Source: Chloroflexus sp. Y-396-1 (GTDB lineage Bacteria; Chloroflexota; Chloroflexia; Chloroflexales; Chloroflexaceae). From it: a stretch of DNA of 64,000 nt. A model generated the notes under the pieces. It was not told the DNA's origin and made no database searches. It was given only the letters and a program-made list of their open reading frames with translations. The stretch covers positions 4,812,633 through 4,876,632 of the forward strand of contig NZ_KI911784.1 in NCBI RefSeq assembly GCF_000516515.1, read 5' to 3'. Shown here piece after piece: positions 25,920 through 41,581 of this stretch. A program made the position numbers and the translations under genes. Positions within the stretch are counted from its first letter, which is position 1, and every line of letters starts with the position of its first letter.

Positions 25920-26822
25920 GCGCCTATCCGAATTACCCCGGCGGCACGGAGGGCGATCACACCACCGGCGAAGTGGAGGAAGGCAAGATACTGCTCGGGC
26001 TTCTTCTCCCAGCCTATCAGCAGGCGGCAAACCCGATTAAGTCAACGATGCCTGCGCTCCACCACCCAGCGTCGTACCCGCCTGCCCGCTGCGCACGCGA
26101 TCTCCTGCGCTTCCTCGCCACGCCTGCGCACGTGTGCCGTGAAGCCAAATGCACGCAACGCGGTGCGCACCTCGTCATCATCATAGCCTTTATCTAGGCA
26201 CATCCCTCGCGGTCGCTCCGCCGTCGGCGCCAGTCGCGCCACAACGATGCGTGCGATGGTCGCACGCGCCAGTTTTATGTCGTGGCGATTGGCGCCATCA
26301 ACCACCACGCCGATGGACGCGCTATGCCCCTCGGTCAGCACCCACCGCTTGCCCCCGCTTTCCCACCTTCGGTCGGATTGCCCCCTTGCCCCCTAGCGGC
26401 GTCTTGATCATCGCCCCGTCCATCCTTAGCCGGTCCCAATCAATGCCCTTCCGTTCATCACATCGTTCGACGCCGACCTGCCAGCGTTTCAGGAACACGC
26501 CAGCGACGCCCCACTCCCGCAAGCGATCATACGCCGTGGATGTGGCGCACCGGTCCGTCGCGTGCAACGCCGCCCACTGACAACCGGTACGGAGCACATC
26601 GAAAGATGGCGTTGGCGCAGCGGCGATCGGACATACGTGGACGACCGCCGCCAAAGCGATGGGTATTCACGTGGAGCGGCGGGAGCAGCTCCAGCACGGC
26701 CCAACGTTCATCCGAGCTGCGAACGCCGGTCGTGGTCGTGTTGGTTGGGGTGCGCGCACGTGCGCGCTTGGGTGTTGGTTCAGTACTCATACGATACGTA
26801 TACCAGTTTTTCGGATAGGCTC
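25920..26822 (-). mobile_element. Degenerate IS5-family insertion sequence
   Basis: About 0.9 kb bounded by imperfect inverted ends: GCGCCTATCCGAA at 25920-25932 and TTCGGATAGGCTC at 26810-26822 (12 of 13 match when inverted). GAGCCTATCC-like ends are typical of IS5-family elements. Inside is a broken leftward transposase. Only a TA core is shared by the flanks (TTA left, CTA right), so the target duplication is not certain. It lies directly after pgl. Confidence 0.85.
25935..26790 (-). pseudogene. IS5-family transposase, frameshifted and nonsense-mutated
   Basis: The family's landmarks appear in order, but in different frames. Frame 1, from 26790: LLPP, HRFGGGRPRMSDRRCANAI. Frame 2, from about 26610: DVLRTGCQWAAL, DWDRLRMDGAMIKTPLGG. 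A short stretch near 26360-26385 fits a third frame (NPTEGGKAG). Then from about 26355: GGKRWVLTEGH, DGANRHDIKLA, ERPRGMCLDKGYDDDEV, RRWVVERRHR. A TGA at 26044-26042 replaces the Trp usually found after RRWVVERxH; downstream of it IGWEKKPEQYLAFLHFA is still recognisable. At least two frame changes plus a stop mean it is inactive. Confidence 0.85.
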
Positions 26823-27173: not shown

Positions 27174-28229
27174 CTAACAGATACGCGGGAGCTGTTCTCC
27201 GATCAACGTATCAACGACACGAGTACCACCAATACCGGTACGAGCAACAACAACTCCGGGATGGTCGGCAGTTGCGTAACCAATCAACGATGCCTCACGG
27301 CCTAGCGGATGATGACGCATTGTGGTCAGTAACAGCTCAGCATCAGCTCGCTCTACAAATACAATCAATTTCCCTTCATTGGCGATGTGCAGCGGATCCA
27401 TACCGAGCAATTCACAGGCTGCCTGTACAGCAGGAGGTACCGGAATATCGCGTTCAACAATCTCAACGCCAATACCAGCAGCGTGGGCAATCTCATTAAG
27501 AGCTGCGGCTACTCCGCCACGTGTTGGATCACGCATCGCATGAATACGTGCGCCGCTGGCAAGCATAACGCTAACCAGTTCGTGGAGCGCAGCCGTATCT
27601 GAAACAACCGGTGCGCCAAATTCAATACCTTCGCGCACGCTCAGAATCGCCACACCGTGTAACCCGATTGGTCCACTGACGATAATGGCATCGCCAGGAC
27701 GGGCTTGGTCGGGGCCAATGTTGATACCGGTTGGAATTAAACCAAAGCCGGTGGTAGTAATGTAGACACCATCTCCATGACCACGATCTACTACTTTCGT
27801 ATCACCAGCAATCAGGTGAACACCGGCTTGCCGGGCAGCGCGTCCCATGCTCTCAGCAATAATACCGAGTTGGTCGAGCGGCATCCCCTCTTCGAGAATA
27901 AAGCTGGCAGTCAAGGCTATCGGCCGTGCTCCCATCATCGCAATGTCGTTGATCGTTCCGTTCACTGCCAGTTCGCCAATATTCCCACCAGGAAAGAACA
28001 ATGGGCGCACGACGAAACTGTCAGTCGAGATAGCAATCCGGCTGTTGCCGACTTCGGTCACAGCGGCGTCGGCTAATGGGCTGTGCAGCGTGCCAAAAGC
28101 AGGCAGAAAGAGATGATTGATCAGTTCGGATGACAGCTTACCACCGGCGCCGTGCCCCATCACAATTGTGGGGTAGTCACGTAATGGCGCCGGACAGATC
28201 CAATTGCTCACGTCAAGTGGTTCGTTCAT
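27174..28229 (-). CDS. hypE: Hydrogenase maturation protein HypE
   Basis: 351 residues. HypE dehydrates the carbamoyl group received from HypF on its C-terminal cysteine to a thiocyanate, the source of the cyanide ligands of the NiFe site. The diagnostic C terminus PRIC is intact. The PurM-like ATP-binding fold shows MGHGAGGKLSSELI, the ISTDSFVV segment, and AVNGTINDIAMMGARP. It is the last gene of the operon, 87 bases after hypD. Confidence 0.97.
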   Translation of the reverse strand: MNEPLDVSNWICPAPLRDYPTIVMGHGAGGKLSSELINHLFLPAFGTLHSPLADAAVTEVGNSRIAISTDSFVVRPLFFPGGNIGELAVNGTINDIAMMGARPIALTASFILEEGMPLDQLGIIAESMGRAARQAGVHLIAGDTKVVDRGHGDGVYITTTGFGLIPTGINIGPDQARPGDAIIVSGPIGLHGVAILSVREGIEFGAPVVSDTAALHELVSVMLASGARIHAMRDPTRGGVAAALNEIAHAAGIGVEIVERDIPVPPAVQAACELLGMDPLHIANEGKLIVFVERADAELLLTTMRHHPLGREASLIGYATADHPGVVVARTGIGGTRVVDTLIGEQLPRIC

Positions 28230-28316
28230 AGTGGTATCCAGCGTTTGTGTTCGTAGCGTTGCTCAAGGATAGCGAAGCAATCTTCGGCACCGATAGCATT
28301 CCCTCGCTTCAATACG

Positions 28317-29432
28317 TTACCCGTTCACCCCAACGTTCGCCGTTGGAATAAAGCGACCGTATTGATAGTACGCTGCACAGGCGCCCTCACTTGAAACCAT
28401 TGTTGCCCCTAGCGGGGTTCGTGGCGTGCATTCCTTCCCGAATGCCGGGCATTGATTCGGTTTCAACCGTCCCTGCAACACCTCACCACTTCGACACAAC
28501 ATCGACTCAGTCGTTTGAATGTTACTAACGTCAAATCGTCGCTCGGCATCGAATGCGGCATAACGGTCGCTCAACCGCCAACCACTGCGTGGAATGACAC
28601 CGATACCACGCCACGCACGGTCGGTAACGGTAAAGACATCAGCCAACATCTGTTTGGCGGCAACGTTACCTTCCGGCCGCACAGCTCGCTCATACGCATT
28701 TTCAAGTTCAGCTCTGCCCTGTTCGAGTTGCAGGATCACGCGCCGGATACCCTCTAGTACGTCGAGTGGCTCGAAGCCGGTAACGACAATCGGTACACGA
28801 TACTTCTCGACCAGGGGCTGGTATTCGTCGGTACCCATGACACTACACACATGACCGGCAGCGAGAAAACCCTGTACACGGTTGGATGGCGATTCCATGA
28901 TGGCACTGATGGCTGGTGGAACCAGAACGTGTGAAACCAGCATCGAGAAGTTCTTGAGACCGAGCCGAGCTGCCTGATAGACCGCCATCGCGTTGGCCGG
29001 TGCAGTGGTCTCGAAGCCGATGGCAAAGAAAACTACTTCACGGTCGGGATGTTGCTGAGCAAGTTTGACAGCATCGAGTGGTGAATAGACAACGCGCACA
29101 TCACCGCCTTCACTCTTTACGCGAAAGAGGTCTTTACGGCTGCCAGGAACCCGTAACATATCGCCAAATGAACAAAAGATGACTTCAGGTCGAGCCGCAA
29201 TAGCCAAGGCCTTATCAATGATCTCTAGCGGCGTCACACAGACCGGACAGCCGGGTCCGTGAATCAGCTCGATCTCTGGGGGCAAGAGCTGATCGATCCC
29301 GTTGCGGATAATAGAGTGGGTTTGACCACCACAGACTTCCATGATCGCCCAGGGTCGGGTCGTGATCCGCCGAATCTGGTCGAACATCCGTCGAGCCAAT
29401 TCGGGATCGCGAAACTCATCAAGATATTTCAT
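28317..29432 (-). CDS. hypD: Hydrogenase maturation protein HypD
   Basis: 371 residues. Iron-sulfur scaffold that, with HypC, builds the Fe(CN)2CO unit. Motifs: [18 protein letters not shown] and the Cys-rich C-terminal part ([27 protein letters not shown]). The ATG at 29432 is preceded by ACGGAGGA and lies inside hypC (14-base overlap); in-frame codons upstream read through hypC and are not real. Confidence 0.97.
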
Positions 29433-29691
29433 GGCGATCCTCCGTATTGGGCTGGAGTTCTTCTTCGAGCACGCCGAGTGATTGGAAGAGGGCAAGCGTT
29501 TCACGAGCTGACTCTTCATCGAGCCGGGTGATGGCGAAGCCGACGTGCACGATGGTATAGTCACCAACTTGCAATTCGGGCAAATAGGCGAGACAGACTT
29601 CCTTAATGATCCCGTTGAAATCGACCTTGCCCATGCGGGTGAGGCCATTGTCGTAGATTTCGATAATGCGACCAGGTATGCCAAGACACAT
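29419..29691 (-). CDS. hypC: Hydrogenase maturation chaperone HypC
   Basis: 90 residues, starting MCLGIPGRI; Cys2 is the essential ligand that carries the iron unit from HypD to the large-subunit precursor. Its end overlaps hypD by 14 bases, so HypC and HypD, which act as a complex, are translationally coupled. Confidence 0.96.
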
Positions 29692-29750
29692 ACTATTTTT
29701 TCCTTTCAGATGGCGAATAAAACCTTCGCTTCAAACAAGAGAGCTAGCTA

Positions 29751-30860
29751 TCACGCACGATGGAGGGCAACGATCACACGATTATTACCCGAATCGGCAA
29801 TTGCTAGCCATTGCTCGAAGGCGTACAAACCGTAAGGCCAACAGAGCGAATCTGGCGCAACAGCCTGCCAGCGATTTTCACCGCTCGCGGCAAAATCGGG
29901 CTGACCGTAAACGGCGTTAGCCGGTAGACCCAGGCCAATTCGTGGCAGCGGTTGCCAGATCAAGATACGATTGTTTGCGGTATCGGCAACCAGCAATCGG
30001 TCGGCTGAGCAGGTCACCGCATAAGGGAAACGCAGGCGCTGGGCGCCCTGTGGCACGTGCGGTTGTTCAAAGGCGCTTTGCATATCAGCCTGCCCCAAGA
30101 CCAGATCGGCAGGACGGTCATCAGTTGGCGGCGGTGTCCAACCCAGCACGCGATGATTACCAGCATCGGCGACATAAAGTGTTTTGCCATCGCCGGCGAT
30201 CGCGTGCGGCCAGCGAAAGCTGTAAGCAGTTGGGGGGCCGCCGCGATTCTCAGCGTTCTGAAACCCGTCTTCCTGGCCGAGGATCAGATCGGGCGGCTGA
30301 TGAGCCTCTGGAAGACCCTTCCATCCCAACACCCGTCGATTACCGGTATCAGCAATGTAAAACCACCCCGCGATCCAGGCTACTCCATACGGCCAGTAGA
30401 GCGTCGTTGGACCCACTGCACCACCACGGTTTGGCTCGATGTCAAACAGCGAATCCTGACCAATCACACTATCCGGCGGCGTGTCAGACTGTTCTGGAAT
30501 CCGATGCCAACATAATACACGATGATGCCAGGCATCGGCAAGGTATAAGCGATCTGCGGCTACCGTTACCCCGGTAGGGACGTGAAACCCGTTGGTTGGG
30601 CCACGACCGGCTGCTCGCGGGCCTTCGTGATAGAAATCGGGTTGACCAAGCACCAAATCAGCAGGTTGGTGATCGGTTGTAGGTAGACCATGCCAGATCA
30701 ACACGCGATGATTACCGGTATCTACCACGATCAACCGTTCGTGATCGAGATAAACACCGCGTGGTGCGTAGAGATTGGTTGGAGTAGCCGTCGCCGCCGG
30801 TAGGGCTAGCCCACCGGGTGCTGGCGCACCCAACCAGCGCACAGGATGGAACGCGCTCAT
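29751..30860 (-). CDS. NHL-repeat beta-propeller in the hydrogenase operon
   Basis: About 369 residues made of repeated NHL-type units, each ending in a variant of VVDTGNHRVLIW (e.g. LADAWHHRVLCW, IADTGNRRVLGW, VADAGNHRVLGW, VADTANNRILIW, IADSGNNRVIV): five or six blades alternating with LVLGQPDF-like linkers. No signal peptide, so cytoplasmic. The start overlaps the stop of the Rieske gene (ATGA), indicating coupled translation. NHL genes accompany uptake hydrogenases in several phyla; the exact role is not known to me. A docking platform is a reasonable guess. Confidence 0.88.
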   Translation of the reverse strand: MSAFHPVRWLGAPAPGGLALPAATATPTNLYAPRGVYLDHERLIVVDTGNHRVLIWHGLPTTDHQPADLVLGQPDFYHEGPRAAGRGPTNGFHVPTGVTVAADRLYLADAWHHRVLCWHRIPEQSDTPPDSVIGQDSLFDIEPNRGGAVGPTTLYWPYGVAWIAGWFYIADTGNRRVLGWKGLPEAHQPPDLILGQEDGFQNAENRGGPPTAYSFRWPHAIAGDGKTLYVADAGNHRVLGWTPPPTDDRPADLVLGQADMQSAFEQPHVPQGAQRLRFPYAVTCSADRLLVADTANNRILIWQPLPRIGLGLPANAVYGQPDFAASGENRWQAVAPDSLCWPYGLYAFEQWLAIADSGNNRVIVALHRA

Positions 30861-31714
30861 TGTGGTCGCACCCAAATAATACCATCAACGACACGCAACG
30901 GGAATGGTTCAAGCTGGGCCTGGGGCGCCGTCAGACATTCACCGCTCGCGACATCAAAACAGAAGCCGTGCCACGGACAGGTGAGCGTGCCGTTTTCGGG
31001 ATCGAGCATTCCACCATCCAGCGGACGACCCTGGTGAGCGCATGCGTTACGATAGGCACTCAGACGGTTGGCAAGATTAACGATGAGAACGTTCCCACGC
31101 TCGGTTGGAATGCTCATCATCTGCCCGGATGGCACCTCTGACACTGCTGGGCCACGTACCCAGCCTTTTGTCTCATCGGGCGACATTTGCGCCTCAGGTC
31201 GCAGGATCGTGGGTGCCGGTTGGTCGGTAAGCACTTCCAGTCGACTGATCTCTGGTACTTCGCGTAACAACACCTCTTCAACGTGTTTACGCAGCGTAAA
31301 CGCCGATAGTGAGCAGCCGTTGCACGATCCATGCAGACGCAGATAAGCAACACCGTCCCGAACATCAACTAACTCGGCATCACCACCGTGTGACTGCATA
31401 TACGGCCGAGCATTGTCGAGCACACGTCGAGCGCGAGTGAGTGGATCGGCACGCACAATCCCATGCATCACCAGCAACGCATACACCGCCGGATCGGCCA
31501 CCAATTCCAGTAACAACTCTTTGCCGCGCGGGTCTTGCTTCAGGTGGCGCACCATCGTGGTGAGTGCCAGCTTATGAAAGGCCTCAATGGCCTGTTTCAA
31601 CTCAAGTGCAACGGCCTGGGCCGACGGTTCTAGTTTAGCTACGGCGGCTACTGCTGCATCAACGCGAGCAGCCACTGATTCGAGGTCATCGGCGACGGTG
31701 TGTGATTGGGTCAT
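30857..31714 (-). CDS. NifU-like/Rieske fusion, candidate hydrogenase electron-transfer protein (HucE-like)
   Basis: 285 residues in three parts. A helical N-terminal ~90 residues. A NifU C-terminal-like domain (about 92-165) with the CNGC metal motif in HGSCNGCSLSAF. A Rieske domain (about 180-280) with both ligand pairs intact: CAHQGRPL (Cys, His) and CPWHGFCFD (Cys, His). A [2Fe-2S] Rieske centre plus a second Fe-S site fits an electron relay from the hydrogenase to the respiratory chain; proteins of this layout are encoded beside group 2a hydrogenases (called HucE in mycobacteria). No membrane segment. Its stop overlaps the NHL gene start. Confidence 0.9.
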   Translation of the reverse strand: MTQSHTVADDLESVAARVDAAVAAVAKLEPSAQAVALELKQAIEAFHKLALTTMVRHLKQDPRGKELLLELVADPAVYALLVMHGIVRADPLTRARRVLDNARPYMQSHGGDAELVDVRDGVAYLRLHGSCNGCSLSAFTLRKHVEEVLLREVPEISRLEVLTDQPAPTILRPEAQMSPDETKGWVRGPAVSEVPSGQMMSIPTERGNVLIVNLANRLSAYRNACAHQGRPLDGGMLDPENGTLTCPWHGFCFDVASGECLTAPQAQLEPFPLRVVDGIIWVRPQ

Positions 31715-31729
31715 AGCTATCTCGATCTC

Positions 31730-32128
31730 TCATTCACCATAACTGATCATACGCTCTAGCACTTCTTCACTGCGCATCACAAGTATGTCGGCAAACGCAC
31801 GGCGTGCCATGATCTGTAGTGTATCCTCGATTTTGCCGGCAGGTAATGCAGGGAGGGTTCGCCCTGCAACCGCTTGCAAAACAAAACAGGCACCGGCAGG
31901 ATTATCGAGGAGAACATCCTGAAACATTGCGGCGACAAATTGATCAAGCCAGATTCCTTCACCTTGTGGCTCGCTTCGCAGGCGGGCCAGAGCAGTCTCG
32001 GCGCCAGCACAACGTTGGACGATGCGCTCAACAAAGCGATCAACAGCCATCATTACAAGCAGATCAAATTGTTGACGTTGGTATAGTTCCATAGGTCTGG
32101 TAAACGGTTTCCTCGTCTCTGCTACCAC
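31730..32128 (-). CDS. Unknown helical protein of the hydrogenase operon
   Basis: 132 residues from a GTG at 32128, or 120 from an ATG at 32092; neither has a good Shine-Dalgarno. Mostly helical by pattern, with no membrane segment or metal motif apart from two scattered cysteines. It sits 15 bases before the Rieske gene, so it is almost certainly part of the operon. No family recognised. Confidence 0.7.
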   Translation of the reverse strand: MVAETRKPFTRPMELYQRQQFDLLVMMAVDRFVERIVQRCAGAETALARLRSEPQGEGIWLDQFVAAMFQDVLLDNPAGACFVLQAVAGRTLPALPAGKIEDTLQIMARRAFADILVMRSEEVLERMISYGE

Positions 32129-32211
32129 CCAGGGCAGGTATATTCACAGCATTCGATGATCTACGCGCTAGTTCACTCGCGAATGTGCCGCACGCAATCC
32201 AAGCAGTGAAC

Positions 32212-33447
32212 TCAATCTTTCGCGTTGTTCACCACTGCTTCGTGATGATCGATATTTGCCAGCAATTCATGGATCGTTGCCACAGCGGATTCATCACCGA
32301 TCTGTGTAAAAAGAGTGGCAGCCTGGTTCAGACGTGCCCGGGCTTCGGCGAAGATGCCAAGGTGAGCGAGCGCATTACCCAGGTTTGCCAGCAACCGGGC
32401 ATAGCCCGCCGGATCGGCTACCGGGTCACGTCGTTGTAATAGGTCTTCGTAGATGGAAACCGCTTCCAGCAGATGATCGGCGGGGCGGGCCGAGTGCACA
32501 TACTGCAGGGCATTCGCCAGATTCATGCGCACACTCATCCATTCCTGCGGATGCTGGTGTGGATCGTACACGCTCAGCGCTGCCCGCAATGCCTGTACGG
32601 CAATCGCACCGCGCAGACGATCACCGGCCTCGGTCATCGGCATTGCCAGGTATGCCAGAGCCAGATTGTTCTGCAGAAACGCAAATTCCAGCGGATGGGT
32701 CTCGCGCTGGAAGAAACGCAACGCCTCTTGATAGCAGCGCACGACGGCCTGGAGCAAACTCCGTTGACCATTGGCGCGCTCTTGTAAAATCTGGCCCAAC
32801 TGCATCGCGGCACGGGCACGTATTTCAACAAGACCATTGGTAGGAATGAGATCAAGTGCTTTTTGCAACCACGCTGTGATCGTCGTCAATTCACCACCGG
32901 TTTGGATGGCCAGCTCGGCCCGGTTAACATATATCTGACCGGCCAGCGGCGGTGAAACGGGCAGAGCCGCAGTGATGGCTTCCGCAAAGTAATGATCCGC
33001 AGCCGACAGATCATCGCGTTCGATAGCAGCAGCGGCGTATGTGATCAAGCCAAGGGCTCGGATTTCACCGGTTGCCGCAGTAAGCGACGGCAACTCATGA
33101 CGATGGCCCATTGTAAAGGCGGCAATCTCATACAAACAGGCCAACTCCTCATCGAGCAACACATGCAGTATCAGATCAGCATCGGCTGAGCCGGTCAGGA
33201 CATACCGATTGTATGCCGCAATCGGTTGCGGGAAAGGTGGCAAGGCTGCCAGGGCCGCCGAGAGATTGCCAGCCAGGGCGTGAGCGTAAAACTGCCACGC
33301 AGTTGGCCACTCGGTTGGGGTTGCACCACGCAACAGAGCAGCTAGCGCAGTTGCTGCGCAGGGTTCGTTGGTCGGCGGCAATACGAGATAACCGGCCGGT
33401 AGGGCAAAAATTCCGAGCGGTTGCGGACGAATTGTCAGATAGCTCAT
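32212..33447 (-). CDS. Tetratricopeptide-repeat protein of the hydrogenase operon
   Basis: 411 residues. After an N-terminal ~110 residues of unclear fold, helical TPR-like units follow to the C terminus: YFAEAITAAL, AELAIQTGG, AAMQLGQIL, NNLALAYLAM, MNLANALQYV, LLANLGNALAHLG with EARARLNQAATLF. Such solenoids hold protein partners together. The ATG at 33447 overlaps the upstream stop (ATGA), which fixes the start; upstream ATGs in this frame lie within the previous gene. Confidence 0.88.
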   Translation of the reverse strand: MSYLTIRPQPLGIFALPAGYLVLPPTNEPCAATALAALLRGATPTEWPTAWQFYAHALAGNLSAALAALPPFPQPIAAYNRYVLTGSADADLILHVLLDEELACLYEIAAFTMGHRHELPSLTAATGEIRALGLITYAAAAIERDDLSAADHYFAEAITAALPVSPPLAGQIYVNRAELAIQTGGELTTITAWLQKALDLIPTNGLVEIRARAAMQLGQILQERANGQRSLLQAVVRCYQEALRFFQRETHPLEFAFLQNNLALAYLAMPMTEAGDRLRGAIAVQALRAALSVYDPHQHPQEWMSVRMNLANALQYVHSARPADHLLEAVSIYEDLLQRRDPVADPAGYARLLANLGNALAHLGIFAEARARLNQAATLFTQIGDESAVATIHELLANIDHHEAVVNNAKD

Positions 33448-33755
33448 GCCATTTCCTCTGCAACTGGCTGTAGCGTCATACATAGAACGCCATTGGTTGC
33501 ATCCCACACTGCCCGGCGCCAACCGGGCTGCGTATCGGGTGGTAATGCTTCCCAAATCAAGACACTCCGATCACCACGTGCATTACGTTGCTTGAGCAGT
33601 AAACCTCCGGCTGCTGGACCACGGAGTGGAACCAGCCAAACCTCATCTCCACGCGGTAACACGACCAGGAGATCGGTCGGAAAATAGCGTTGGGCCAGTG
33701 ACGCCGGCAGATGAAGATAGCCCTGCGCAGTCAGTTCAAGCAGCCACGTCTCCAT
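33444..33755 (-). CDS. Small unknown protein between the protease and TPR genes
   Basis: About 103 residues from the ATG at 33755, inside the end of the protease gene (20-base overlap), with its own stop overlapping the TPR start. The pattern is a compact beta-rich fold (WLLELTAQGYLHLP, DLLVVLPRGDEVWLVPLRG). No family recognised. The double overlap strongly suggests a real, co-translated gene. Confidence 0.7.
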   Translation of the reverse strand: METWLLELTAQGYLHLPASLAQRYFPTDLLVVLPRGDEVWLVPLRGPAAGGLLLKQRNARGDRSVLIWEALPPDTQPGWRRAVWDATNGVLCMTLQPVAEEMA

Positions 33756-34263
33756 GATGATCACTACTGCTATCAAACACCCTAGCGTAGCCCGGATACG
33801 GTTGCCATGGGTTATGGTGAAGATGGTGGGCCAAGTCCTCCATACGAGCCGCGACCGGAGGGCTAAGCGGGGCGCCAATAGTGAAGTCGGCTCCCTCTAT
33901 CAGATACACCTGTACTGAACGTGGGTACTCATCTTTGAGCAGCCAGCGCCCAAACGCCAGTGCGTGATCCCAACGAAACGCATGCAGGTTGATCCCGGTG
34001 AGCGGTGGCAATTGTTCGACGATCGAACCAGGTACAGAGTAAATCGTTCCGGCTTCAGCACCGGTGCGAGCGGCATCAACCAGGATCACCATCTCCACCC
34101 CTCGCATCCGAAAGGCAACATCCATCCCGCTGGTGCCGGCATCGGCGACGCCAACATCGGGCGGTAAGCCCAGTTCAAGCAATCGCCGCACCAGCACCGG
34201 CCCAACGGCATCGTCGCCGCGCAGTAAGTTCCCACAACCGATAATGAGCAACTGTTCAGACAT
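33736..34263 (-). CDS. Hydrogenase maturation protease (HyaD/HybD family)
   Basis: About 175 residues from the ATG at 34263. It should remove the C-terminal tail of the large subunit after nickel insertion. Motifs: GCGNLLRGDDAVGP, with the nickel-sensing acidic residue present as Asp, VADAGTSGMD, and a conserved His in LHAFRWDHAL. It follows hupL on the same strand, the usual position for the cognate protease. Confidence 0.92.
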   Translation of the reverse strand: MSEQLLIIGCGNLLRGDDAVGPVLVRRLLELGLPPDVGVADAGTSGMDVAFRMRGVEMVILVDAARTGAEAGTIYSVPGSIVEQLPPLTGINLHAFRWDHALAFGRWLLKDEYPRSVQVYLIEGADFTIGAPLSPPVAARMEDLAHHLHHNPWQPYPGYARVFDSSSDHHGDVAA

Positions 34264-34362
34264 ACGCTGTCTATTTCCAGCTAAAGGCAAGCAAAACACA
34301 TTTCGTCTGCACCGATGATCCCATCAGACACCGGTGCAGACATCCTTGCGCGCTTGCCCCTG

Positions 34363-36000
34363 CTACGCGCCTTCCCCAATGCGGAACTGTGCTAACGCCT
34401 TGCCGGTCTTTTCGTCGTAGGCGTGTACGGTGCAGACCAGACAGGAGTCATAGCTCCGTGCCACATGACCGAGTTCAACCGGATCACTTGGATCGGTAAT
34501 CGGTGTGCCAATAAACGCCTGCTCCATCGGCCCATTGACCTCGCGGCCATCACGTGGCCCGATATTCCAGGCCGTCGGCGTTACCACCTGATAGTTTTCG
34601 ATCTTGCCGTCTTTGAGCACGATCCAGTCCGAGAGGCTCCCACGGGCAGCCTCTGTTGAACCGAAACCACGTCCTTCGGGAAGCTCTTTCGGTTTGATGT
34701 AAAACTTCTCGTGCAGATTGATCTGATCAAGCCACTTGCGAACCAGTTTGTAGTATTTGGGTGCTTCGTGCATTCGAGCCATTACCCGCACCAACACACT
34801 TGGGCCGACAGTGGTTACTGCATCGAGGAACAGCGGATCGTAGTCCTGCCAGTCGGCAGCCCCCGGACGACCGGCAATCACCTGACGGGCCAGCGGACCA
34901 GCCTCTACCGGATGACTGCCAACGCCAGGGATCAGGTAGCGCGGCGCCTTTGCCCACGAATACTTACCCTGACGATGCCCCACAGCCGGATCGATGGGTT
35001 CGGTTCGACCTTCAAACGGATGGAGAGCGTGGCTACCCTCATAGAAGGAATGGGTCACATCTTCACGCACATTGGCCTGGTCGAAATCGTAGAACTGACC
35101 ATTAACATAGACCCCCGACCGGGCGATGAGGGCCGCATTACGCCCTTCAATGGTCGGACGCGCATACCGTTCGGGATGGAAATAGGTACCGGTAGCAATA
35201 TAGTTATTCCAGCCAGCGCCATACTTATCCAGACCGGCAGCCAACGCGAAGCGCAGGAAAAAGCCACAGTCTGAGTTGTAATGGCGTTCGTTCTCGTGCA
35301 TCCATTCCATCACGTCGGCCCAACTCTTGTTTTGCAGCCAGCGATCGACCGAACAGCCGAGCCACTTCTTCTCAAGCCATTCATCTTTCCAATACTCAAG
35401 AATAGCGATGGCGCGCGTAACATCGGCCAACGTCGGCGCACACATCACCCCGCCAGGGATCATAAAGCTCGAATGAGGCCACTGCCCGCCAAAAATGGCG
35501 TAAATCTCAACCGGCTTATTCGAGAGGGTTACCCCGTGCTCGTAGCTGGTGCCGACGAAAGGAGCAAAGCGGCGTACCGCCTCATCGTATTCGGGTAAAT
35601 GTGCGTATTTCTTGTTCGTCAAATCAATCGCAAACAGAGCGTAGAACCAACGCGGAATGCTCTGCAAGGTCTCACAAGCCTGCGCGATATTGCGAATGAG
35701 TGTCGCGTTTGGCGGCAACTCGGTTTGCCAGGCGGTATCGAGGGCGTAAGCTGCTTTGGTTAAATGACTCCCTCCGCAGATGCCACAAATCCGTGGAGTT
35801 ACAATCAAACCAGCCTGAGGGTCTTTCCCTTTCAGAATAATCTCAAAGCCGCGAAACATTGAGGCTTCAGTCCACGCACTGGTCACAACGCCATCGCGAA
35901 TGGTAACGCGCAGGTCGAGATCACCCTCAACTCGACCAAGTGGGCTAATCCGCAGATCACGACCGGTGAGCGTTGCCGGATTTTCGATAATATTGACCAT
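34363..36000 (-). CDS. hupL: Uptake [NiFe]-hydrogenase large subunit, group 2a type
   Basis: 545 residues. Binds the NiFe(CN)2CO site that oxidises H2. The proximal Cys pair is in TPRICGICGGSH (about residues 69-80) and the distal pair in DSCLVCTVH, followed by a 19-residue tail that the neighbouring protease should cut after His. DSC instead of the commoner DPC, and segments such as GGQWPHSSFMIPGGVMCAPT, are shared with cyanobacterial HupL, placing it in group 2a (also called HucL). No export signal; cytoplasmic side. GGGAGAAG precedes the ATG. Confidence 0.96.
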   Translation of the reverse strand: MVNIIENPATLTGRDLRISPLGRVEGDLDLRVTIRDGVVTSAWTEASMFRGFEIILKGKDPQAGLIVTPRICGICGGSHLTKAAYALDTAWQTELPPNATLIRNIAQACETLQSIPRWFYALFAIDLTNKKYAHLPEYDEAVRRFAPFVGTSYEHGVTLSNKPVEIYAIFGGQWPHSSFMIPGGVMCAPTLADVTRAIAILEYWKDEWLEKKWLGCSVDRWLQNKSWADVMEWMHENERHYNSDCGFFLRFALAAGLDKYGAGWNNYIATGTYFHPERYARPTIEGRNAALIARSGVYVNGQFYDFDQANVREDVTHSFYEGSHALHPFEGRTEPIDPAVGHRQGKYSWAKAPRYLIPGVGSHPVEAGPLARQVIAGRPGAADWQDYDPLFLDAVTTVGPSVLVRVMARMHEAPKYYKLVRKWLDQINLHEKFYIKPKELPEGRGFGSTEAARGSLSDWIVLKDGKIENYQVVTPTAWNIGPRDGREVNGPMEQAFIGTPITDPSDPVELGHVARSYDSCLVCTVHAYDEKTGKALAQFRIGEGA

Positions 36001-36018
36001 TGCCAGCTTCTCCCATTG

Positions 36019-36990
36019 CTAAACGACGAACATGTCTTCCTTGGCCCACTTGGGAGCCGCCACACGAGCCGCTGCTGCCAGCGCCATATAACTGATCGGA
36101 TCGGTACCGGTTGGAACTTCTTTCGGAATGGCCCCACTGATCTTCTGCGTCTTGAATACCGTACCAGGGGCCAGATCGAAGAACGGAAACTCAGGTTCGG
36201 TACAGCCGGTGCACGGCATACCGGCGCGAGTCTTCGACGACTGGCGGTTCCAGAGAATGCGATTGCAAGGCGAACGAGTCATAGGACCACGACAGCCAAA
36301 TTCGTAAAAGAGACAGCCGGTGCGCGTGCCCTGGCCGAATTCGAGCGTTGATTGCTTGTACTCAAAAAACTGAACGCGAGTGCAGCCGGTCTGGGTGAAG
36401 CTGGTAAAGAAGGTCTGTGGTCGCTGCAACTCATCGAGGGCAATATCGGCAGCCCGACCACTGGCGACAGCAACCAGAATCTGTGTCACCCAATCGGGGT
36501 GTGCCGGGCAGCCAGGGATGTTAATCACCGGTAAACCGGCCTTAGAACGCCAGTTGGGGCCGAGGAAACCGCCCAATTCGCGCTTATGGAATTGAAGGCC
36601 GGTTGATTGGCTGGGGTTGGGAGCCATAGCCGGAATACCACCCCAACACGCACAATCACCGATAGCAACTACAATCCCGGCCTGAGCAGCCAGTTCGCGA
36701 ACCCACTCTTGCATTGGTCGGTCGGCAAACATATTGTAGCGTCCGGTACCGTTTGGCGCCTGGATCACGGTACCCTCAAACACGAAAATGTCGAGTGGAC
36801 GGACGCCGCTGGCACAATCGTAAAAAATGCGTTTAGCGTTCTCGCCCAACTCCATACCGAGCGACGGATGCCACAGAATCTCAATGCCAAAATCGGTTAC
36901 CAGATCGCATGCGCTGGGTTCCTCGGCATTGAGGAATGACATCGTGTTGCCGCTACAAGCGCCACCCTGTAGCCAGAGCAGTGTTGCCAT
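36019..36990 (-). CDS. hupS: Uptake [NiFe]-hydrogenase small subunit, group 2a type
   Basis: 323 residues. Carries the Fe-S relay from the NiFe site. The start LWLQGGACSGNTMSF is nearly that of cyanobacterial HupS. It has no Tat signal and no C-terminal membrane anchor, unlike periplasmic group 1 enzymes. At the proximal cluster the usual CxxC reads CSGN (Cys12...Asn15), so the fourth ligand is not Cys; other ligand regions are GDCACWGG, NIPGCPAHP and several Cys in CLFYEFGCRGP, CNRILW and MPCTGCTEP. GAAGGAGA precedes the ATG; hupL follows after 18 bases. Confidence 0.96.
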   Translation of the reverse strand: MATLLWLQGGACSGNTMSFLNAEEPSACDLVTDFGIEILWHPSLGMELGENAKRIFYDCASGVRPLDIFVFEGTVIQAPNGTGRYNMFADRPMQEWVRELAAQAGIVVAIGDCACWGGIPAMAPNPSQSTGLQFHKRELGGFLGPNWRSKAGLPVINIPGCPAHPDWVTQILVAVASGRAADIALDELQRPQTFFTSFTQTGCTRVQFFEYKQSTLEFGQGTRTGCLFYEFGCRGPMTRSPCNRILWNRQSSKTRAGMPCTGCTEPEFPFFDLAPGTVFKTQKISGAIPKEVPTGTDPISYMALAAAARVAAPKWAKEDMFVV

Positions 36991-37047
36991 GAATGCATCT
37001 CCTTCATCCTCTCAAAACGAACGAACAAATCATACTGCCCGGTTACG

Positions 37048-37740
37048 CTATGCAATCGTCTTGGTACCCTTGTGTCGCGCTTGCATCTGTTCGCGCAGCC
37101 ACGCCATCCACTCCTGCAAACCGGTTTCACTGCGGGCCGAGGTAGCAATAATGGGTGCCAATGGGTTCACTGCCCGAATATTCTCCTCAGCCATTGCCCG
37201 ATCAAACCCAACCGGCCCGGCCAGGTCCATCTTGGTCAACAAAATGGCATCAGCAGTTGCAAACGTGGCAGGGTACTTCAACGGTTTATCTTCACCCTCG
37301 GTAGTTGACAATAAAACAACTCGCGCCGCCTCACCGAGGTCATAACCGGCAGGACAGACAAGATTCCCAACATTTTCGATAAACAGCAGATCGATCTGGT
37401 TGAGATCCCAATCGGCCAGATGACGGGCCACGATGTCAGCTTCGAGATGACACATATCACCGGTCTGAATCTGACGCACCAGACCACCACTGCGCGCCAA
37501 CCGTCGAGCATCGTTATCAGTCGCCAAATCACCGACCAATGCAGCAACACGGCATTCCGCCAGCATGGCCCGCATCGTCGCTTCAAGTAAGCTCGTCTTA
37601 CCCGCACCGGGGCTAGAAAGGAGGTTAACTACCGTTACACCCGCAGCGTGAAAGCGAGATCGTAACTCAGCAGCGAGTTGATCATTCTTGCTCAACACTC
37701 CCTGACGTATCTCAATTAAGCGTTTTGTTTCGTAGCTCAT
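37048..37740 (-). CDS. hypB: Hydrogenase nickel-insertion GTPase HypB
   Basis: 230 residues. SIMIBI-class GTPase that with HypA delivers nickel. Walker A SSPGAGKTSLLE, the metal-site segment ENVGNLVCPAGYDLGE, LLTKMDLAG and SARSETGLQEW. No His-rich N-terminal nickel store. Its ATG overlaps the hypA stop (ATGA). Confidence 0.97.
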   Translation of the reverse strand: MSYETKRLIEIRQGVLSKNDQLAAELRSRFHAAGVTVVNLLSSPGAGKTSLLEATMRAMLAECRVAALVGDLATDNDARRLARSGGLVRQIQTGDMCHLEADIVARHLADWDLNQIDLLFIENVGNLVCPAGYDLGEAARVVLLSTTEGEDKPLKYPATFATADAILLTKMDLAGPVGFDRAMAEENIRAVNPLAPIIATSARSETGLQEWMAWLREQMQARHKGTKTIA

Positions 37741-38081
37741 GGTGTCTCCAGGGCAACCAGTTCTAATTCACGACCATGAACGATCTGCCCACAAGGACGA
37801 TGACACGATGGACAGCGAAACAGTCGTGGATTGGGCAATGTCACTTCAGCACGACATTCAGGACAAAAAACTACTACCGGTACCTCTTCAATGATCAGTT
37901 CGGCGTTCGCCAGTGGGGTACCCTCGGCGGCAATTGCGAAACTGAAGCGCAAGGCATCGGCAACTACACCAGATAACGCACCGATGCGTACATGAACAGC
38001 ACTGATCTGTTCAGCACCTGCTTCCTGAGCTGCTTTGGTAGCAATGTTGACGATATTGTATGCAATCGATAATTCGTGCAT
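37737..38081 (-). CDS. hypA: Hydrogenase nickel-insertion protein HypA
   Basis: 114 residues. The nickel-binding N terminus MHELS (His2) and the zinc loop with two Cys pairs (CPEC...CPSC, plus CGQ) are intact. Coupled to hypB; starts 4 bases after the DUF1641 gene. Confidence 0.97.
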   Translation of the reverse strand: MHELSIAYNIVNIATKAAQEAGAEQISAVHVRIGALSGVVADALRFSFAIAAEGTPLANAELIIEEVPVVVFCPECRAEVTLPNPRLFRCPSCHRPCGQIVHGRELELVALETP

Positions 38082-38085
38082 GAAC

Positions 38086-38955
38086 TTACTTCAGCGAACG
38101 GCCAAAGCGACGACCGAATTCAACTATCAGGGCAGCGGCGCGCTGGACATCGGGATCACGAAGTGCCTTCAGCAACCCCAACACGCCCACTGCTTTCGGC
38201 GACTGCCGTAACTCTTTGCGACTGGCAACGAAGGCATCGCCCGCTTCGCCCACTAGGCGCACCGTTTCTGGATCGAACACGCCCGAATCCAGGAGGGCAT
38301 CGAATTCTTCCGAGGCGATAAATGGTTCGATGCGCTCAATCACCTCAATAAAGTTCGGCGCCACGGCGACTAACCGGGGGAAATAGGGCAAGAAGGTAAC
38401 CATTGCATCGATAAGTTGGGTCGGCGTCACCGACTGGGCTACCATAACGTTCCGCATCTCTTCAATCGAACTGCGGATATTCTCGGTCAGCTCATCACCA
38501 CGGGCCAACAGGTGATCGAGGGCGCTTACCAGGAAGGAGAGTAACTCGCTGTGAGCCAGCAGGCGCTCGAGTGCGGCCAGGACTTCAGGTTTGGTCAGAG
38601 TCGTCAGAAGACGTTGAAACGCAGGTTGTGCTGTCAGTGCAGCCAACTGCTCGACGGTATCGGTAAGTTGGGGAAGCGTGCGCGACAATCGGATAAGCTG
38701 CGTCGTCAGATGACCACCATCTTCAGGCAAGGCAGCGCGCAACTCGTGAACGCTGGCGGCCACATTGTCGGCGATAGTTTCACCACGTTGTAACAGGCTA
38801 TCAACTGCGCTCACCGAGAAAGCTAGAAGCTCAGCTTTGTCGAGCAAGAGGTGGAGTGCAGCCGCCGTCTGCGGTTCGTTGAGTCGTTCGAGTAATGCAC
38901 TGGCGTTCAGCGAACGATCGGTACGACTGGTGGTTGTAGCGCCATTGCTAGTCAT
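38086..38955 (-). CDS. DUF1641 protein with two related halves, first gene of the hydrogenase operon
   Basis: 289 residues, almost entirely amphipathic helix. Residues about 22-72 and 121-172 look like copies of one unit: AELLAFSVSAVDSLLQRGE against SELLSFLVSALDHLLARGD, each followed by a (D/E)N(I/V)xxS(V/I)xE segment. Further on come a hydrophobic stretch (about 180-215) and a conserved-looking C-terminal part (GVLGLLKALRDPDVQRAA) typical of DUF1641. DUF1641 proteins accompany hydrogenases and formate dehydrogenases. By position it could be the counterpart of HucM, the quinone-handling partner of group 2a enzymes, but that is speculation. GAGGAG precedes the ATG, and the operon promoter lies about 90 bases upstream. 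Confidence 0.85.
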   Translation of the reverse strand: MTSNGATTTSRTDRSLNASALLERLNEPQTAAALHLLLDKAELLAFSVSAVDSLLQRGETIADNVAASVHELRAALPEDGGHLTTQLIRLSRTLPQLTDTVEQLAALTAQPAFQRLLTTLTKPEVLAALERLLAHSELLSFLVSALDHLLARGDELTENIRSSIEEMRNVMVAQSVTPTQLIDAMVTFLPYFPRLVAVAPNFIEVIERIEPFIASEEFDALLDSGVFDPETVRLVGEAGDAFVASRKELRQSPKAVGVLGLLKALRDPDVQRAAALIVEFGRRFGRSLK

Positions 38956-39268: not shown

Positions 39269-41581
39269 ATGAAAGGCGAAACTGCGCATCCACAGCAACG
39301 ACGCTGGCGGGTAAGCGTCCACGGGATTGTTCAAGGAGTTGGTTTTCGGCCATTCGTGTTTGGGTTGGCCGAACGCTGGCGGTTAACCGGTTTTGTGCGT
39401 AACGACAGTAACGGGGTCACGATAGAAGTAGAAGGCGAAGAGCAGGCGCTACAGTCATTCGTACAGGCGTTACGTACCGAAGCGCCGCCGTTGGCTCGGA
39501 TAGAGCAATTACGGGTCGAACCACTGGCACTGGTTGGCGACAAGGAGTTTGTGATTACCGCTAGTCAGGCCCAACCTCAGCGTCGCACGCTCATTGCACC
39601 GGATACAGCCACCTGTGCCGATTGCCTGCGTGAGATCACCGATCCGCATGACCGTCGCTACCGTTATGCCTTCACCAACTGCACCAATTGCGGCCCCCGC
39701 TTCACGATCGTTCTTGATGTGCCTTACGACCGCATCAATACCACGATGCGCGATTTTCCGCTCTGTCAACAGTGTCAGGCGGAATACAACGATCCACGTG
39801 ACCGGCGCTTCCACGCCCAACCAACCGCTTGTCCGGCTTGCGGCCCTCGTCTCCAGTGGTCGGCAGGTGACACCGATGATCCAATCGCTGCCGCTGCAAG
39901 AGCAATCGCTGATGGGCAGATCGTCGCAGTCAAAGGCCTGGGAGGCTACCATCTGGCCTGCGCAGCCGATGATGAAGCGGCGGTGAGGCGGTTACGGCAA
40001 CGAAAGCAACGTGAGGCACGCCCACTGGCACTGATGGTCCGTGATGAAACGGTGGCAGAGCAGCTCTGCCAGATCGATCCGGTAGCTCACACCTTACTTA
40101 CCAGCCCGGCGCGCCCGATTGTGCTTCTTCCCCGCCGACCAACTGCACCAGTTGCACCATCAGTTGCGCCGGGGATGCAGACATTGGGTGTGATGTTGCC
40201 CTATACGCCACTGCACTATCTCTTACTTAACGAATACGCCGAGATTATCGCGCCAGGGCGGGTTGCAGCAATTGTGTTAACCAGTGGTAATCTGAGCGAT
40301 GAACCAATCGCTTACGAGGACGATGATGCGTTCACCCGACTGGCGCCAATTGCCGATGCCTTTCTGAGTCACAACCGACCCATTCACATCCGCTGTGATG
40401 ATAGCGTAGTGCGGATAGCCGCAGGTGGGCCGCTCATCATTCGTCGCTCACGGGGCTACGCACCGGCACCGATCACATTGGCTACAGCCTTGCCCTGTTC
40501 GATCCTTGCTTGCGGGGGTCATCTCAAGAACACGTTCGCGCTTGGACGTGGTCGTGAAGTCTTCCTCAGTCACCATATTGGCGATCTGGAGAATCTCCCC
40601 ACATTACGCTCATTCCACGAAGGGATCGTCCATTTTCAACGATTATTCGGCATAACACCAGAGGTTGTTGCTTACGATCTGCATCCGGGCTATCTGGCTA
40701 CCCAGGCGGCATTAGCAATGCCGATAGAGCGAAAGATTGGCGTGCAGCATCACCACGCTCACATTGCTGCCGTTCTTGCAGAATATGGACTGGATGGGCC
40801 GGTCATTGGGCTGGCAGCCGATGGCAGTGGCTACGGAGCTGATGGTACAGTGTGGGGTGGCGAGATATTAATCGCGACCTGCGCTACGTATACGCGGGTT
40901 GGTCATGTGCGTCATTTGATCCTACCGGGCGGTGAACAGGCGGTACGTCAGCCATGGCGGATTGCGGCAGCAGCACTCTCCCAAATATACGGCACTCATT
41001 TCTGGCAGATGGACATACCATTCACGCGCCAACTTGATCGCACCACCTGGACAGTATTGGCTCGTATGATTGAACGAAAACTAAATAGCCCGCTAACCTC
41101 AAGTCTGGGACGATTATTCGATGCAACAGCAGTATTGGTAGGGCTTGGTCAGATTGCTCGTTACGAAGGCGAGTTAGCGATATTGCTCGAACAGATCGCC
41201 GATTGGCAACAACCTCCATATCCAATGCCAATCGAGGAGTCAGCAACTCCTGATACTCCGTTTACTCTTGATGGGTTGGCACTGCTATCGGCGCTGGTTG
41301 ACGATCTGCGGCAGAGTGTTCCGCCAGCGGCTATTGCCGGGCGGGTTCATCAGGGGATTGCTCACGGCTTATGGCTGGCCTGCCGGCGAGCGCGTGATGA
41401 ATATGGTCTGACAACAGTTGCGCTCAGTGGTGGGGTGTTTCAGAATGTGCTTCTACTCGAACTACTTGCCGAGTTGTTACGCAACGATGGGTTTACTGTG
41501 CTCCTCCCACGGCTAGTGCCACCTAACGATGGTGGCTTGGCATTCGGTCAGATTGCCGTAGCCGGGGCTTGCGTAGGCTGA
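39269..41581 (+). CDS. hypF: Carbamoyltransferase HypF
   Basis: 770 residues. Makes carbamoyl adenylate from carbamoyl phosphate and passes the carbamoyl group to HypE. Domains in order: acylphosphatase (about 10-95, VHGIVQGVGFRPFV), two zinc-finger pairs (CADC...CTNC and CQQC...CPAC, about 107-190), YrdC-like (about 195-385, VKGLGGYHLACAA), and Kae1-like (about 400-765, HHHAHIAAVLAEYG, ALSGGVFQN). All parts intact. Transcribed away from the other hyp genes, so it can be expressed separately. Confidence 0.97.
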   Translation: MKGETAHPQQRRWRVSVHGIVQGVGFRPFVFGLAERWRLTGFVRNDSNGVTIEVEGEEQALQSFVQALRTEAPPLARIEQLRVEPLALVGDKEFVITASQAQPQRRTLIAPDTATCADCLREITDPHDRRYRYAFTNCTNCGPRFTIVLDVPYDRINTTMRDFPLCQQCQAEYNDPRDRRFHAQPTACPACGPRLQWSAGDTDDPIAAAARAIADGQIVAVKGLGGYHLACAADDEAAVRRLRQRKQREARPLALMVRDETVAEQLCQIDPVAHTLLTSPARPIVLLPRRPTAPVAPSVAPGMQTLGVMLPYTPLHYLLLNEYAEIIAPGRVAAIVLTSGNLSDEPIAYEDDDAFTRLAPIADAFLSHNRPIHIRCDDSVVRIAAGGPLIIRRSRGYAPAPITLATALPCSILACGGHLKNTFALGRGREVFLSHHIGDLENLPTLRSFHEGIVHFQRLFGITPEVVAYDLHPGYLATQAALAMPIERKIGVQHHHAHIAAVLAEYGLDGPVIGLAADGSGYGADGTVWGGEILIATCATYTRVGHVRHLILPGGEQAVRQPWRIAAAALSQIYGTHFWQMDIPFTRQLDRTTWTVLARMIERKLNSPLTSSLGRLFDATAVLVGLGQIARYEGELAILLEQIADWQQPPYPMPIEESATPDTPFTLDGLALLSALVDDLRQSVPPAAIAGRVHQGIAHGLWLACRRARDEYGLTTVALSGGVFQNVLLLELLAELLRNDGFTVLLPRLVPPNDGGLAFGQIAVAGACVG

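Follow-up and report, generated by a model that had tools for sequence, protein, structure and literature searches.

A group 2a hydrogenase operon of Chloroflexus sp. Y-396-1, its two-collar HucM homologue and its accessory genes

How do electrons from a soluble hydrogenase reach the quinone pool, and which of the genes that accompany the enzyme take part? The question is raised by a locus of Chloroflexus sp. Y-396-1, whose genome is a single 4.89-Mb contig (NZ_KI911784.1). The window, as the analysed stretch of 64,000 nucleotides (positions 4,812,633 to 4,876,632 of that contig) is called here, contains fourteen open reading frames (ORFs) at 27174-38955, all on the minus strand. A first-pass annotation had read them as a group 2a hydrogenase operon in which TPR and NHL proteins, two small proteins, a NifU-Rieske protein (HucE) and a DUF1641 protein form one module that docks the enzyme and links it to quinone. 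The module should probably be divided: the locus likely encodes a group 2a uptake [NiFe]-hydrogenase, a membrane/quinone adaptor and a set of dedicated assembly factors. Atmospheric H2 is oxidised through group 2a hydrogenases in many bacteria, among them Chloroflexus aggregans, and operons of this group hold hucE and NHL genes (PMC7784904).

The hydrogenase and its HucM homologue

HucL scored 925 bits against the large subunit of Mycobacterium smegmatis Huc (7uus_A), compared with 225 bits for the best solved non-Huc hydrogenase, and carries both cysteine motifs, L1 (RICGICGGSH) and L2 (SCLVCTVH). The C-terminal extension past ...SCLVCTVH is expected to be removed by the maturation protease. 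Residues 2-323 of HucS align without gaps to residues 1-322 of M. smegmatis HucS. With both subunits being near-full-length relatives of M. smegmatis Huc (PDB 7UUS/7UTD/7UUR/8DQV), the locus is, by sequence comparison, a Huc/HupSL-type (group 2a) [NiFe]-hydrogenase operon, as the first-pass annotation had it. The closest named locus among the matches listed was that of Chloroflexus sp. SKYG63 (HucL 97% identical). The M. smegmatis enzyme has high affinity, is insensitive to O2 and carries three [3Fe-4S] clusters in HucS (PMC10017518).

The content of the operon is ordinary and well precedented; what is different is its HucM. The DUF1641 protein matched 7uus_Q, the membrane subunit of Huc (E = 1.9e-14, strongest over residues 121-286; 6.8e-28 when used as a profile), and its residues 21-74 matched the collar chain 7utd_Q (1.5e-8). 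The DUF1641 (PF07849) score was 44.4 bits, against the Pfam cut-off of 21 bits. By these matches the protein is a HucM homologue, so that an agent of quinone docking is already known and the quinone link first proposed for DUF1641 is borne out. Because residues 121-286 and 21-74 both match HucM, two stretches of one protein correspond to the same HucM region. In M. smegmatis HucM, residues 20-79 act as the scaffold for four HucS2L2 lobes, and the quinone stalk consists of residues 80-189 (PMC10017518). The window HucM, on the other hand, has collar repeats at residues ~18-77 and ~113-172, followed by a single C-terminal stalk/DUF1641 part (~175-289). It therefore has two collars, while the four-lobe assembly (8 HucSL : 4 HucM) has one collar per chain. 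Aligned directly, the two collars scored 122, whereas 1000 shuffles averaged 29.9 and did not exceed 50, and a collar hidden Markov model profile built from these two repeats recovered them at 8e-29 and 2e-24. The accessible parts of the open-access HucM literature searched make no mention of collar repeats in HucM, and those of the Parageobacillus and C. aggregans accounts do not recognise DUF1641 as HucM or report its repeats (PMC12976888, PMC7784904). The variation in collar number described below, together with a fusion of the protease to the small protein Sm1, is what is new here.

Collar number was compared across loci that include 80 genome loci, the best 80 of 421 confirmed relatives, so the sample favours sequences near Chloroflexus and Actinomycetota; cyanobacteria lie outside it and are cited from papers. 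Duplicates (L037, L118, L121 and L122, of which L118 and L122 duplicate L032 and L071) were dropped before counting, and loci with short flanks were excluded from the denominators of 76 (downstream) and 77 (upstream) used below. Among 76 surveyed loci with HucM, 46 had one collar, 28 had two and 2 had three, the last being what look like near-copies, both from Bryobacteraceae. Single-collar HucM was found in Actinomycetota, Bacillota, Deinococcota (Thermus), one Aquificota-labelled record and two Anaerolineae records, and two-collar HucM in Chloroflexales, one Caldilineaceae record, Acidobacteriota, Planctomycetota and Gemmatimonadota. Collar number was clustered on a HucL tree (79 rows, 74 with HucM), on which five changes suffice; this was a quick tree with some long branches (L108, L106, L071, L107 and L095), and L032 and L037 were left out of it.

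These results suggest that complex size may vary with collar number, the docking segment being present one to three times among relatives. Since the window HucM has two collars, the stoichiometry of its assembly may differ from that of the four-lobe mycobacterial form. If collar number sets the number of hydrogenase tiers per quinone stalk, a stalk of four chains would carry 4, 8 or 12 HucS2L2 lobes (8, 16 or 24 HucSL) for one, two or three collars per chain, a reading that we hold tentatively and regard as rather unlikely; equally doubtful is its extension, in which Huc would be a modular, multi-tier nanomachine that grew in evolution as its docking repeat was duplicated in tandem. With three collars per chain, no whole number of chains gives a closed four-collar ring, which argues against a simple halving of the chains. 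Should the stalk still consist of four chains, eight collars would be available here, and the spare ones may not bind. The second collar could instead be a spacer or a longer stalk that binds no lobe, the complex staying at eight HucSL, and this is quite possible, if somewhat short of an even chance. The single stalk part is in line with a spacer, and so is the distance of collar 2 from the single collars (conservation rho 0.42, compared with 0.68 for collar 1), a divergence that also tells against our account of HucM. So does the tandem HucM monomer model, which was poor (pLDDT 49.7, pTM 0.20) and was used for its all-helical character alone; the HucM fold thus rests on sequence. However, collar 2 retains over four phyla both the RG arginine, which is kept at 97% in either collar, and the leucine/proline frame, and the distance between collar starts in multi-collar HucM stays at 90-109 residues, neither of which favours a spacer. 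All Huc structures found in the PDB come from mycobacteria and have a HucM with a single collar. Should assembly be altered where HucM has two or three collars, as it does in many non-actinobacterial loci, the published architecture would represent one case of a modular design.

The C-terminal part of the window HucM is common to ForE1, YjlC and an NDH-2 membrane coupling protein (profile E 8e-7 to 4e-6). These proteins match in this part only, without collars, and serve other dehydrogenases, judging from their names and from the ForE1 work (PMC8808070). A second DUF1641 gene of the genome (L126:5162-5896, near 4666449) adjoins a flavoprotein of the pyridine-nucleotide oxidoreductase family and a rhodanese/metallo-beta-lactamase gene, and a second DUF1641 match was also present in all seven other genomes of the genus. 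We take the flavoprotein to be possibly a sulfide:quinone oxidoreductase (SQR) or NDH-2-like; with the second DUF1641 gene it likely makes up a further quinone-adaptor pair. Profile matches, paralogue context and the ForE1 work (PMC8808070) together suggest that DUF1641 proteins are general soluble quinone adaptors. An eroding huc locus was also seen in a genome of the same family (G222, L127:4953-12252), where hypE, hypD, Sm1, hypB, hypA, HucM and hypF remain. Its HucM, shortened to 178 aa, has a single chimeric collar, and that genome gave no HucL match.

Accessory proteins: assembly or electron relay

The 103-aa protein, Sm1, had no convincing sequence match in Pfam or the PDB. Counted with a profile freed of protease sequence, its domain forms the C-terminal part of a fusion with the HucL protease in 42 of 83 Sm1-bearing loci (41 loci with actinobacterial titles and one of Pirellula); Sm1 is a gene of its own in the window and a protease domain in the surveyed mycobacterial loci. 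Because Sm1 is fused to the protease elsewhere and the two genes overlap here, the results point to a role of Sm1 in HucL maturation, which gives a concrete lead to the role of this small conserved protein. Outside the protease fusions Sm1 stands alone, except in five loci (L024, L036, L037, L040 and L045; four Acidobacteriota and one Sulfobacillus), where it is fused to another small domain, Sm2. Sm2 (~85 aa) is itself conserved, being found between protease/Sm1 and TPR in 62 of 104 loci (e.g., L023:12459-12716), and had no match in the window. The AlphaFold2 model of Sm1 was confident (pLDDT 93.4) and aligned to MraZ over 83 residues at 2.5 Å with a VIA-align Z of 8.8, where unmatched models usually reach Z 7 to 8. 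Sm1 may resemble MraZ in fold; the two show no sequence match.

Conservation of the accessory genes with hupSL, which the first-pass annotation had implied, was seen for most of them. In the 76 loci where 6 kb or more of sequence follows the hucL ORF, TPR was present in 74, NHL in 73, NifU-Rieske in 71 and the Sm1 domain in 65, but the ~132-aa protein in only 32; HucM was found in 65 of the 77 loci that have 5.5 kb or more upstream. HucE, which carries a NifU-C CxxC motif at residue 131 and a Rieske CxH-x18-CxxH motif at residue 225, was not nearby in the Bacteroidota loci L027 and L028, and L120 was scored as lacking it, with the region partly masked there. In Nostoc PCC 7120, TPR, NifU-like and NHL genes of the extended hyp-operon (asr0689-alr0693) are transcribed together with hyp genes, and roles in small-subunit maturation have been proposed for these cyanobacterial counterparts (PMC2408588, PMC3126725). 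Both there and in the window, TPR, NifU-like and NHL genes lie between hupSL and hyp genes, while hypA/hypB of the window are on the other side of hucSL.

The cassette was also found without a nearby HucM. Six alphaproteobacterial plasmid loci (Bradyrhizobium, Sphingopyxis, Octadecabacter, Novosphingobium, Mesorhizobium and Roseovarius) have Sm1, TPR, HucE and NHL in 6/6, with HucM not found in the locus neighbourhood, indicating that the cassette does not depend on HucM. Assembly is thereby separated from quinone docking, the two having formerly been lumped together in this operon. Between TPR and HucE these loci encode a pair of small proteins, each of which has one or two hydrophobic segments. 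Profiles of this transmembrane (TM) pair matched only L026, L029 and L030 among 104 loci and gave no match in the window, where the 120-aa protein occupies the position of the pair. The DUF1641, Sm1, TPR, 120-aa, HucE and NHL proteins of the window all fell below the 1.6 hydropathy threshold (highest HucE, 1.59), HypE being above it at 1.62. The two small two-TM proteins of the Nostoc cluster (asr0689/asr0690 type) likewise have no counterpart in the window, as judged by hydropathy and by the alphaproteobacterial profiles rather than by Nostoc sequences. HucM and the small TM pair as alternatives fit the six plasmid loci and serve as a lead. However, two pairs among these six loci are near-identical and the search covered plasmid loci, six actinobacterial loci show neither a HucM nor a TM-pair match, and two Bacteroidota loci show neither nearby. 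The six actinobacterial HucSL genomes (one Frankia, all drafts, one sequence being the query) gave no HucM match where a control genome did; HucM is therefore not universal, which speaks against our account, and the picture is not a clean swap. In L026, L029, L030 and L128-L130, hucL and the protease gene are separated by genes for two proteins of ~105-130 aa; in the three of these loci that were translated, this pair shows a CxxCMYY ... CxLPEL pattern.

Together, Sm1, TPR, NifU-Rieske and NHL look like an assembly cassette. HypA-F build the NiFe site and insert it. In the scheme that we propose, HucSL would oxidise H2 in the cytoplasm, the collar repeats of HucM would hold the HucS2L2 lobes, and its C-terminal stalk would deliver menaquinone to HucS. 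Electrons would pass from HucL through HucS to quinone with no separate relay, as shown for M. smegmatis and as we infer for Chloroflexus. The protease would trim HucL with the aid of the Sm1 domain, and HucE, TPR and NHL would assemble the iron-sulfur clusters of HucS or join HucS with HucL.

Two other readings of the accessory proteins were weighed against this scheme. In the one put forward in the first-pass annotation, TPR, NHL, both small proteins, DUF1641 and NifU-Rieske act as a single docking and electron-transfer module from HucSL to quinone, with the Rieske cluster as relay. The genes are co-located, and DUF1641 is indeed a quinone adaptor. Moreover, H2 oxidation in M. smegmatis is lowered when hucE is deleted and lost altogether when hhyE is deleted as well; the authors of that study favour electron transfer and propose a relay (PMC6883350). 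These genetic results weigh against our scheme, as do the redox-active nature of the Rieske domain, which is odd for a pure assembly factor, and the consideration that absence from purified Huc could reflect weak binding. On the other hand, HucS, HucL and HucM make up the purified M. smegmatis enzyme, which is able to reduce menaquinone analogues (PMC10017518). A tetrazolium dye did not bypass the loss of HucE/HhyE, and the authors leave a maturation role possible (PMC6883350). The fusion of Sm1 to the protease, the cassette kept where HucM is not nearby and the Bacteroidota loci without HucE nearby also argue against a single module, which we consider improbable. HucE, TPR and NHL are on this analysis most likely assembly proteins rather than a respiratory relay, and the module was probably wrongly drawn for the proteins other than DUF1641. 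The other reading concerns Sm1 alone, which from its predicted MraZ/AbrB-like fold might be a DNA-binding regulator of the operon. Five MraZ-type entries aligned to the model over 81-86 residues with Z 8.1-8.8, and the next fold was the DNA-binding B3 domain (Z 5.7). The likeness to MraZ is moderate only: the Z values are little removed from those typical of models without a clear match, and the best Foldseek hit of the model was weak (E 0.025). Unlike MraZ, Sm1 has a gene context of protease and hydrogenase; it is fused to the maturation protease, its gene overlaps the protease gene and its net charge is negative. DNA binding also does not explain the conserved core around GGLLLKQRN-GDRS. A regulatory role for Sm1 thus seems a poor prospect, and a role in HucL maturation is preferred.

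Operon layout and the 120-aa protein

Each of the fourteen ORFs has an ATG start, one stop and an unbroken frame, and strand and order are as first annotated. The overlapping stop/start coupling claimed for several genes was recovered at five adjacent pairs: hypA/hypB (4 bases), protease/Sm1 (20), Sm1/TPR (4), NifU-Rieske/NHL (4) and hypC/hypD (14). The hypF gene is divergent from hucM, 313 bases apart, and completes the hyp set. The NHL protein is the only PF01436 match in the genome. Pfam also recognised both hydrogenase subunits.

Table 1. Genes of the huc locus and the divergent hypF, with positions in the window
Gene or protein	Position	Strand	Length	Evidence
hucM-like DUF1641 gene	38086..38955	-	289 aa	DUF1641 Pfam 1.5e-11
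hypA	37737..38081	-	114 aa	PF01155 2.4e-32, TIGR00100
hypB	37048..37740	-	230 aa	TIGR00073 1.3e-79; Pfam HypB/CobW
hucS (hupS), small subunit	36019..36990	-	323 aa	7uur_D E=1.3e-189
hucL (hupL), large subunit	34363..36000	-	545 aa	7uus_A E=1e-277
HucL maturation protease	33736..34263	-	175 aa	TIGR00072 3e-37, PF01750 (HycI)
Sm1	33444..33755	-	103 aa	Fusion survey, AlphaFold2 model
TPR protein	32212..33447	-	411 aa	PF13424 1.9e-5, below Pfam cut-off
P132 (~132 aa in the first-pass annotation)	31730..32092	-	120 aa	Alignment of 20 homologues
hucE (NifU-Rieske)	30857..31714	-	285 aa	PF01106 6.9e-21, PF00355 1.7e-15
NHL-repeat protein	29751..30860	-	369 aa	PF01436 1.9e-23
hypC	29419..29691	-	90 aa	PF01455 6.8e-28
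hypD	28317..29432	-	371 aa	PF01924 5.2e-157
hypE	27174..28229	-	351 aa	PF02769/PF00586
hypF	39269..41581	+	770 aa	Five HypF Pfam domains

The locus was compared with known systems. HucM, protease, TPR-position, NifU, NHL and hyp genes also occur in a mycobacterial relative; the window operon differs from that of M. smegmatis Huc in having hypA/hypB inside it and the 120-aa protein added. The group 2a locus of Parageobacillus thermoglucosidasius has a gene order identical to that of the window (DUF1641, hypA, hypB, small subunit, large subunit, protease, hypothetical, TPR, hypothetical, NifU, NHL, hypC, hypD, hypE; Table 1 of PMC12976888). By first-pass labels, the exact window order was found in 14 of 100 loci.

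The gene of the ~132-aa protein (P132) is real, but its length was probably overcalled: judged by its homologues, the start most likely lies 12 codons downstream (MELYQ...). Neither Pfam nor the PDB gave a convincing match for P132, and none of its 39 first-pass matches was in a mycobacterial locus. Counting related genomes, 19 of 82 genomes of the order had P132 and 21 had HucL, with both in 16; the three genomes with P132 and without HucL are draft assemblies. Sm1 was present in 22 of the same 82 genomes, 20 of them in common with HucL. We propose that P132 is an optional member of the operon, with at most an optional role in assembly.

Two minor observations were made. A Chloroflexus-like huc locus (L033, HucL 82% identical) is labelled Candidatus Gracilibacteria, probably a binning error. 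Just past the hypE end of the operon, overlapping frames lie at 26042-26654 on the minus strand, which we take to be pieces of an IS5-type transposase.

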